Of a DNA stretch of 64,000 nucleotides, positions 1-33,847 are shown one piece after another; position 1 is the stretch's first letter, and every line of letters starts with the position of its first letter. The stretch spans positions 1 to 64,000 of the forward strand of contig PKUA01000076.1 in the NCBI GenBank assembly GCA_002868905.1, in the 5' to 3' direction. Both the position numbers and the translations under genes were made by a program. Below the pieces are notes generated by a model. It was not told the origin of the DNA. It did no database searches and saw only the letters and a program-made list of their open reading frames with translations. The stretch comes from Desulfuromonas sp. Lineage in GTDB: Bacteria > Desulfobacterota > Desulfuromonadia > Desulfuromonadales > Geothermobacteraceae.

Positions 1-157
1 TCAACAAAACAATCGGTATCAAGATAAAATCGAAAACGACAAATCGCGTCGTTTCCAGCCCGATATATGCTCAAATCGAAAAACGCCTATCTTCCCAACC
101 GAAAATAGTCGTCAACATTCCCCCCCCGAAAAAAAATGATTAACTGCAGAGAATATC
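1..157. other. Leader downstream of the GEMM riboswitch, no gene seen
   Basis: This AT-rich stretch is the minus-strand continuation of the riboswitch transcript; the gene it controls lies beyond the left edge. A short minus-strand hairpin (165-161 with 152-148) reuses the 3' strand of aptamer helix P1 and is followed about 11 nt later by a run of eight T (136-129). That could be a weak terminator competing with P1. No open reading frame with a ribosome binding site was recognised on either strand. Confidence 0.4.
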
Positions 158-257
158 GACTCTCTTCGGCGACCCGGCTACCCACCTTCGAAAAAACTTA
201 GCGAACCCGTGGCTCTGCGTCAGTGGATCACTCCACCTTTGCTCTTATCGGAGAGTC
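158..257 (-). promoter_or_regulatory. GEMM-I cyclic dinucleotide riboswitch, probably cGAMP-selective (GEMM-Ib)
   Basis: Read on the minus strand, this has the GEMM-I layout: P1 formed by GACTCTC and GAGAGTC, the GCAAA strand, a P2 hairpin closed by a GTGA tetraloop, the conserved ACGCAGAGCC segment, a CTAAG element resembling the tetraloop receptor in P3, and the terminal GGTAGCCGGGTCGCC. Aligned by eye to the Vibrio Vc2 aptamer, the ligand-selecting base (Vc2 position 20) falls at window position 243 and is A, not G. That change is the mark of Geobacter-type aptamers that sense 3',3'-cyclic AMP-GMP. The controlled gene is outside the window. The aptamer call is strong; ligand identity is inferred. 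Confidence 0.85.
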
Positions 258-275
258 TTCTACTAATTGTCTAAA

Positions 276-304
276 ATTCTAATTTTCTAACTAGCCAAAA
301 TCAA
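276..304 (-). promoter_or_regulatory. Sigma70-like promoter for the GEMM riboswitch transcript
   Basis: On the minus strand a -35 TTGATT (304-299) and a -10 TAGAAT (281-276) are separated by 17 bp. The predicted start near 269 is about 12 nt before helix P1 of the riboswitch, as expected for a riboswitch leader. Confidence 0.55.
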
Positions 305-376: not shown

Positions 377-922
377 TCAGAGGTACAACCAGACAAACAT
401 AAGCGGAACAATCACTCCGACACCGGTTAACACCAGGCCGCGTCGAAGAGTTTTTTTGCGGATCATCAACAACCCGCTGAGCGCAAGGAAACCAAGGGCC
501 ACGGCATAGAGGTCGGCCACCCAGGTCCAGGCCTTTTTCGGATGATTGAGATGGAGGAAATTCATTGCCCGCAAACCGGGGCGGGGGATTGCTTTTTCGT
601 AGACAACCTGGCCGGTGCGCAAGTCAATCAGGATCGAGCGTTTTTCGACGAACAACTGTAGCTGGCCGGGTGCCGGCAGGTAGCTGCTCTCAAGCTCCCC
701 TGTTTCACCGAGACGCCTAAGGATCTCCCGCTGGGTCGTTAACTGGACCGGGTCGCCGGCTACAGGGCCGATTTCGGCTGTCGCTGTTTCGATGGAGTAA
801 CTCGGGTTCCAGTCGGCGACATGGTTCACCGCCACCCCGGAGATGGCGTAGACCAGGGTCAGGCCGATGCAGAGGAATCCGATATCGCGATGCAGGAGAT
901 AATTCCAGCGCCGCCAATTCAT
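377..922 (-). CDS. PepSY-associated transmembrane-helix protein
   Basis: A 181-residue inner-membrane protein. An N-terminal helix follows the start MNWRRWNYLLHRD, a soluble PepSY-like region (about 30-125) faces the periplasm, and two hydrophobic segments close the protein (about 130-155 and 160-180). The motif HLNHPKKAWTWVADLYA before the third helix is typical of PepSY-TM proteins, which are linked to iron or cofactor handling and cell-surface redox, mostly without defined activity. I chose the ATG at 922 because it lies 4 bp after the stop of the DUF4920 gene; longer forms would overlap that gene. It is probably the last gene of a three-gene operon. Confidence 0.75.
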   Translation of the reverse strand: MNWRRWNYLLHRDIGFLCIGLTLVYAISGVAVNHVADWNPSYSIETATAEIGPVAGDPVQLTTQREILRRLGETGELESSYLPAPGQLQLFVEKRSILIDLRTGQVVYEKAIPRPGLRAMNFLHLNHPKKAWTWVADLYAVALGFLALSGLLMIRKKTLRRGLVLTGVGVIVPLMFVWLYL

Positions 923-926
923 GGTG

Positions 927-1388
927 TCAAAGCCCCGGAATCTCCGCTCCCAGGCCGCGCAAGCGGATGACCCGTTCGCCGGTGGTGACGGAGGCTGGGT
1001 CAAACGGGATTCCTTGCTCCTCGGCGTGGTGCTTGCTTCGGGCCAGGACCTGCTCCCGGGTCAGCTCGAACACTTCCACCACCCCCTCGACTTCGGCCTG
1101 CTTGCCGCGAGCTTCGAGAGGGAAGACGATTTCGCCATCGGTCACCTTGACCCTTATTTTCTCGTAGGGTCGATCGCCGGCGACGTAAATCCAGCAGCCG
1201 CGGCGGGCACAGACATCGACGATCAAGCCGCTCACCTTGACCTGTTTCCCGAGGTACTCTTCGGGTTGGTCGAGAATTGAAGAAATTGCCGTAGTCTCTG
1301 CGAGAGAGACCCCGTTGCCGAACGACTTGGCCAATACCGTGTTGGTCATCAACAGAACCATAGCCAGCAAGAGCAGAAAAGTTCTCAT
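927..1388 (-). CDS. Exported DUF4920-type protein
   Basis: The 153-residue product begins with a clear signal peptide (MRTFLLLLAMVLLMTNTVLA), so it is exported. The mature part is a small beta-rich domain with a CxxRGCW motif (about residues 60-66), which matches the DUF4920 family of periplasmic proteins; the paired cysteines could bind a metal or form a disulfide. It lies between a DUF302 gene and a PepSY-TM gene on the same strand, so the three may act together in envelope redox or metal chemistry. No enzymatic function is established for the family. Confidence 0.7.
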   Translation of the reverse strand: MRTFLLLLAMVLLMTNTVLAKSFGNGVSLAETTAISSILDQPEEYLGKQVKVSGLIVDVCARRGCWIYVAGDRPYEKIRVKVTDGEIVFPLEARGKQAEVEGVVEVFELTREQVLARSKHHAEEQGIPFDPASVTTGERVIRLRGLGAEIPGL

Positions 1389-33571: not shown

Positions 33572-33631
33572 AGCAGCGCAAGCGGTGTCGACCCGGACCC
33601 CTCCCACGCAGGACCGGTCAAAACTCAAGCG

Positions 33632-33808
33632 TCTGGGCAGGTCTCCTGGCTTGTGGTTCATCCTCGGGTCGCACCTTCCCGCCGGTTTGACCGGCAGTGG
33701 TTGTCTCGACCGTCGTCACCACTCACAGTTGCGGGGCAGCGAGGGAGTCTCACCCTCTTCCCTATTCTTCCACCTTCGCGTTTCGAAGCTTCGGCGGACA
33801 CCCAAACT
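33632..33808 (-). promoter_or_regulatory. Cobalamin riboswitch of the cob operon
   Basis: The minus strand carries the conserved cobalamin aptamer segments in order: GGGTGTCCGCC, GGGAA with GGTGAGACTCCC, CGCTGCCCCGCAACTGTGA, a GGGAAGGTGC-type segment, AGGATGA and finally CACAAGCCAGGAGACCTGCC (the B12 box). A terminator and a matching antiterminator follow before cobO, so ligand binding should stop transcription of the whole operon. Confidence 0.95.
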
Positions 33809-33817
33809 ATCTGATGA

Positions 33818-33847
33818 TATGTAGCAGAGGGAGGTATTGGCTGTCAA
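33818..33847 (-). promoter_or_regulatory. Promoter of the cobamide operon
   Basis: A consensus -35 TTGACA (33847-33842) is followed after 18 bp by TACATA (33823-33818). The predicted start, about 33811, is at the 5' edge of the riboswitch aptamer. Confidence 0.6.

Follow-up and report, generated by a model that had tools for sequence, protein, structure and literature searches.

A probable cyclic AMP-GMP riboswitch with a predicted ligand-OFF platform at a contig end in a Desulfuromonas genome

Introduction

The closest described relatives of the locus presented here are the Geobacter c-AMP-GMP (GEMM-Ib) riboswitches, pilM and pgcA among them, in which a GEMM-I fold with A at the selector position occurs in an organism encoding a GacA-like Hypr GGDEF enzyme. 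Ligand contacts in the pilM structure include A14, A41 and C75 (PMC6274999, PMC7288161), and the pair beside the selector base there is C15-G40 (PMC6274999). A second system, the c-di-GMP-I riboswitch Cd1 of C. difficile, is a c-di-GMP sensor whose selector base is G; it is an OFF switch with a terminator separate from the aptamer (PMC9262584), its antiterminator being formed by the aptamer 3' strand, including the C that pairs with the ligand, and a downstream terminator strand. The engineered Vc2 G20A, with A20 next to the canonical pair G21-C46, binds cGAMP.

The window, the whole 64,000-nucleotide stretch analysed here, forms the left-hand end of the 98,298-base contig C1 in a Desulfuromonas sp. 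genome of 3.30 Mb in 84 contigs. Its riboswitch shares with pilM and pgcA the fold, the selector A and the presence of a GacA-like enzyme in the organism. It differs in having G-C rather than C-G beside A20, in its separate distal terminator, predicted to give an OFF switch where those of Geobacter are ON, and in lacking any known connection with cytochromes or pili. The platform resembles that of Cd1, whereas the selector base and its neighbouring pair are those of Vc2 G20A, here in a natural RNA with a transcriptional platform rather than the Vc2 context. In the literature that we consulted on these switches, which reports ON behaviour, we found no description of an OFF platform joined to a cGAMP-type aptamer, although this is not proof of absence. 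The predicted OFF platform is the sole, and modestly, new point of the riboswitch.

Results and discussion

The aptamer

The preliminary description of this DNA had proposed an intact GEMM-I aptamer on the minus strand, and a cmscan search bears this out (Table 1). The match to RF01051 (c-di-GMP-I, or GEMM-I; E 6.9e-6) covers the full length of the model, positions 1-87 of 87, and exceeds the Rfam gathering score. RF01051 alone was reported at the site, neither of the variant models c-di-GMP-I-GGC (RF03167) and c-di-GMP-I-UAU (RF03168) being the best match. A model derived from the copies in this genome, the window copy among them, gives 79.7 bits. The P1/P2/P3 three-way junction is complete, with a P1 of 7 bp, a P2 of 6 bp capped by its GNRA loop and the junction bases A47 and C92 (Vc2 numbering) all in place. 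Across 15 copies from the genome, 91.7% of cells at paired positions are indeed paired, and the covariation score of 0.539 compares with 0.223 for shuffled and at most 0.18 for slid alignments. Judged from its sequence, then, the RNA is a cis-acting GEMM-I riboswitch, its aptamer in itself ordinary and of a kind already known.

Table 1. Features of the riboswitch locus in the window (all on the minus strand).
Feature	Position	Strand	Evidence
-35-like box TTGATT	299-304	-	promoter-site scan; weak alone
-10-like box TAGAAT, 17-bp spacer	276-281	-	promoter-site scan
GEMM-I (c-di-GMP-I, RF01051) aptamer core	165-253	-	46.3 bits against a gathering score of 35 bits
P1 5' strand GACUCUC	251-257	-	sequence; pairs 257-251 with 164-158
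Selector base A (Vc2 position 20, pilM A14)	243	-	cmscan alignment; pilM contacts (PMC6274999, PMC7288161)
P2 stem-loop, GUGA (GNRA) loop at 231-228	222-237	-	RF01051 alignment and covariation
A47 equivalent, intercalating A	216	-	RF01051 alignment
P3 stem, upper part largely maintained by G-U pairs	172-213	-	covariation, comparison with the sibling copy on C56
C92 equivalent, pairs with ligand G	169	-	RF01051 alignment
P1 3' strand GAGAGUC	158-164	-	sequence
Antiterminator strand 1, GCCGAAGAGAGUCG, holding C92 and the P1 3' strand	157-170	-	complementarity to 98-111
Intervening hairpin H1, 160-149 with 122-111, 12 pairs	111-160	-	-12.6 kcal/mol
Antiterminator strand 2 / terminator 5' arm, CGACUAUUUUCGGU	98-111	-	complementarity to 157-170
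Distal intrinsic terminator; stem 112-101/94-83 has one A-G mismatch, and a U5 tract lies at 83-79	79-112	-	about -11 kcal/mol
Second terminator-like hairpin ahead of the contig end	31-57	-	sequence scan

A very improbable explanation is that the copy is decaying and has no functional target. Its P3 carries five wobbles, G-U pairs accounting for five of the seven pairs of the upper stem, the terminator stem contains an A-G mismatch, two terminators stand in succession and the contig ends before any start codon appears. Yet the core is intact, and comparison with the sibling copy on contig C56 shows the substitutions in upper P3 to be transitions that leave wobbles in place of Watson-Crick pairs, with pairing preserved.

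Selector base, ligand supply and ligand

As had been claimed, the base equivalent to Vc2 position 20 is A: the covariance alignment with RF01051 places A243 at Rfam position 11, and the cross-numbering of the aptamer agrees with the pilM structure.

Two GGDEF proteins in the genome have the D-to-S change of the Hypr signature (GHLVGS in L071, GHLAGS in L072), both with a GGDEF motif, the combination of serine with GGDEF being the active one (PMC6456294). One of them, encoded on contig C13, is a Rec-GGDEF protein. The best match of its GGDEF domain is the solved GacA domain of G. metallireducens (6d9m, E 1.5e-54), with GHLAGS lying over GHLVGS, serine over serine, and the GGDEF motif is retained rather than replaced by GGEEF. 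The C13 protein appears to be a GacA orthologue, and two Hypr-type proteins recognised by sequence, one of them GacA-like, suggest that the host probably makes cGAMP.

Since an A20 aptamer and a GacA-like Hypr enzyme occur together in the genome, 3',3'-cGAMP is the likeliest ligand of the window aptamer. The aptamer may bind c-di-GMP as well, because A20 adjoins a canonical G21-C46 pair, as in Vc2 G20A, and not the C-G of pilM. A minority possibility to be taken seriously is that the RNA senses c-di-GMP or has dual specificity, with A20 doing no more than relax specificity in a pocket that is otherwise of the c-di-GMP-I type, with G21-C46 and a canonical junction. The pair concerned (12-37 in the Rfam model) is G-C in the window copy and in all A20 copies examined. 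The selector position is described as biasing selectivity without acting as a strict filter, mutations low in P2 also shifting selectivity (PMC9262584), and the Desulfobacca A-type aptamer gained c-AMP-GMP affinity with a loss of c-di-GMP affinity that was perhaps slight (PMC9481103). Many canonical GGDEF proteins are encoded in the genome. Against this reading, five G20 copies form a distinct set in the same genome, which suggests that two groups are kept apart, and GacA-like enzymes are encoded. The earlier proposal of a cGAMP sensor thus holds as regards the probable ligand, while an exclusive preference for cGAMP does not follow, given the G21-C46 neighbour and the published selectivity data (PMC9262584).

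Expression platform

The preliminary description had noted an alternative hairpin that reuses the P1 3' strand; it is present, but the main competition comes from the 5' arm of a terminator further downstream. Both this distal terminator and the long-range antiterminator had been overlooked. The terminator begins 51 nt downstream of the aptamer and uses no aptamer strand. Its 5' arm can pair with the strand containing C92 and the 3' side of P1 (170-157 with 98-111) through 13 pairs and one mismatch, at -17.1 kcal/mol, a value equalled in 1% of shuffles, and this pairing encloses H1. With RNA parameters, the antiterminator and the aptamer-plus-terminator states of the window copy differ by about 1.5-4 kcal/mol, as expected of a switch. 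Computed energies for the sibling copies do not favour the antiterminator in some, for example in C62b.

A separate terminator whose 5' arm is complementary to the aptamer 3' strand predicts a ligand-OFF switch. In the proposed mechanism, GCCGAAGA-GAGUCG (C92 and the P1 3' strand) would pair in the ligand-free RNA with the terminator 5' arm, extending H1 into an antiterminator so that the downstream gene is read. Binding of 3',3'-cGAMP from the GacA-like Hypr enzyme, and perhaps of c-di-GMP also, would lock P1 and C92 into the aptamer, whereupon the terminator would fold and transcription halt. We therefore favour, with moderate confidence, a cis-acting A20 (c-AMP-GMP, GEMM-Ib) riboswitch with its own promoter, acting transcriptionally as a ligand-OFF switch on a target just past the contig end.

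Comparison with other copies shows how far this platform is shared. Distal terminators of similar layout recur in most of the sampled A20 copies (38). Among GEMM-I copies of the order, picked for this comparison by similarity to the window, the motif [CU]UUCGG, complementary to the aptamer 3' strand, is present in 27 of 48 distal terminators but in only 4 of 190 control hairpins (Fisher 1.6e-18), and it occurs too in an A20 copy on a Geobacteraceae contig. The fit of each 3' strand to its own terminator rather than to those of other copies was not significant (p 0.18 for the whole strand, 0.08 for the extension). The terminator motif could have been inherited with the duplicated copies. The distal layout is also used by G20 copies of relatives. 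Because of the non-significant fit and this shared layout, the case for an OFF switch is built on layout, conservation of the motif and energetics.

The converse, an ON switch like pgcA or pilM in which the ligand-stabilised aptamer blocks termination, seems unlikely. In G. sulfurreducens, deletion of gacA lowers every GEMM-Ib gene tested (PMC6456294), pilM is an ON switch (PMC9262584), and three copies in the same genome (C51, C65 and C73) have an ON layout, with a terminator built from the aptamer 3' strand; C22 folds alike. These ON-layout copies, however, carry G20, and the window copy has a terminator separate from its aptamer, with no ligand-freed antiterminator found there.

The claim that the riboswitch has its own promoter with a 17-bp spacer is plausible. 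The sigma-70-like TTGATT-17-TAGAAT (304-276) is there, with transcription expected to start near 269, but it is weak by itself: shuffling gave equally good sites in 17% of cases, short of significance, and the stretch contains 2 promoter-like sites where 0.7 would be expected. TTGACA-type boxes lie at a similar distance in several sibling copies.

Target gene and neighbourhood

The contig ends 164 nt past the aptamer and no open frame starts between the two, in agreement with the earlier suggestion that the target lies off the left edge. The last 29 bases of the contig have no other occurrence in the genome, and DNA searches of genomes that held no same-genus relative found no syntenic copy of the locus. 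Upstream of the riboswitch, on the same strand, are a PepSY_TM-like protein and a DUF4920 protein (window 377-1388, minus strand); orthologues of the PepSY gene were found in other genera only. Elsewhere in the window is a strong cobalamin riboswitch (RF00174, 123.8 bits, 33619-33820, minus strand).

Control of extracellular electron transfer genes, also proposed earlier, is conceivable but unsupported: the genes that follow sibling A20 copies encode lipoproteins, a PilZ protein, a ShlB/TPS two-partner (adhesin-type) secretion pair and secreted proteins outside any known family, and no cytochromes. In Geobacter, control of such genes through an ON platform is the usual arrangement for c-AMP-GMP riboswitches, though it does not strictly define the class.

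The left end of contig C58 (L047:1-83) bears a strongly diverged GEMM-like element that the models do not detect. Its P1 is kept, its P2 has six pairs but a new sequence, and the terminator motif is the same, but core bases are changed. An M19 dipeptidase lipoprotein follows it. Contigs C1 and C58 could possibly form a tandem like that on C56 (164-nt gap).

Copies across the genome and the order

The genome holds 16 matches to RF01051, one of them just below the cut-off, with A20 in 11 and G20 in five. RF01051 is present in 50 of 58 genomes (the source genome and 57 relatives), and a strict A20/C92 pattern matched 43 of the 136 genomes searched in the order, which makes A20 aptamers common there.

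A pattern search of the same 136 genomes found one copy, C62:1041-1115 (L050:1041-1115, minus strand), to be unique in combining A20 with U92, giving the pocket A-A-U. It scores 34.9 bits with RF01051 and 34.0 with c-di-GMP-I-UAU, and is a naturally occurring equivalent of the engineered RNA Vc2 G20A/C92U, which binds c-di-AMP (3MUV, cited in PMC7288161). The U92 change is mirrored in its terminator (UUCGAAGA/UCUUUGGA), it lies before a secreted protein of no known family, and a diadenylate cyclase is encoded in the same genome. Contig C17 has three tandem A20 copies (C17:11616-12549; L048:2617-3550) with a common double change at Vc2 positions 24/43, from A-A to C-U, seen also in two further families (L148, L142).

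Four of the G20 copies are those on C51, C73, C22 and C65 (L056, L058, L059 and L052, respectively). C65, C73 and C22 have the pilM-like C-G at 12-37 but G at position 20. Downstream of the C65 copy is a protein that resembles cytochrome c peroxidase and contains a CxxCH haem-binding motif.

Wider significance

With its 11 A20 and five G20 copies and a GacA-like enzyme, this genome joins those of organisms likely to use cGAMP signalling. More tentatively, and at somewhat less than an even chance, the A20 GEMM-I riboswitches of the order may constitute a cGAMP-repressed (OFF) regulon with Cd1-like antiterminators, the reverse of the cGAMP-activated Geobacter regulon, with G20 copies, some of ON layout, kept in the same genomes. 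If so, rising cGAMP would shut off adhesin and other surface genes. Were the OFF platform to hold true, cGAMP would use a single RNA fold both to activate and to repress genes, and the way in which cGAMP regulons are predicted from sequence would change.
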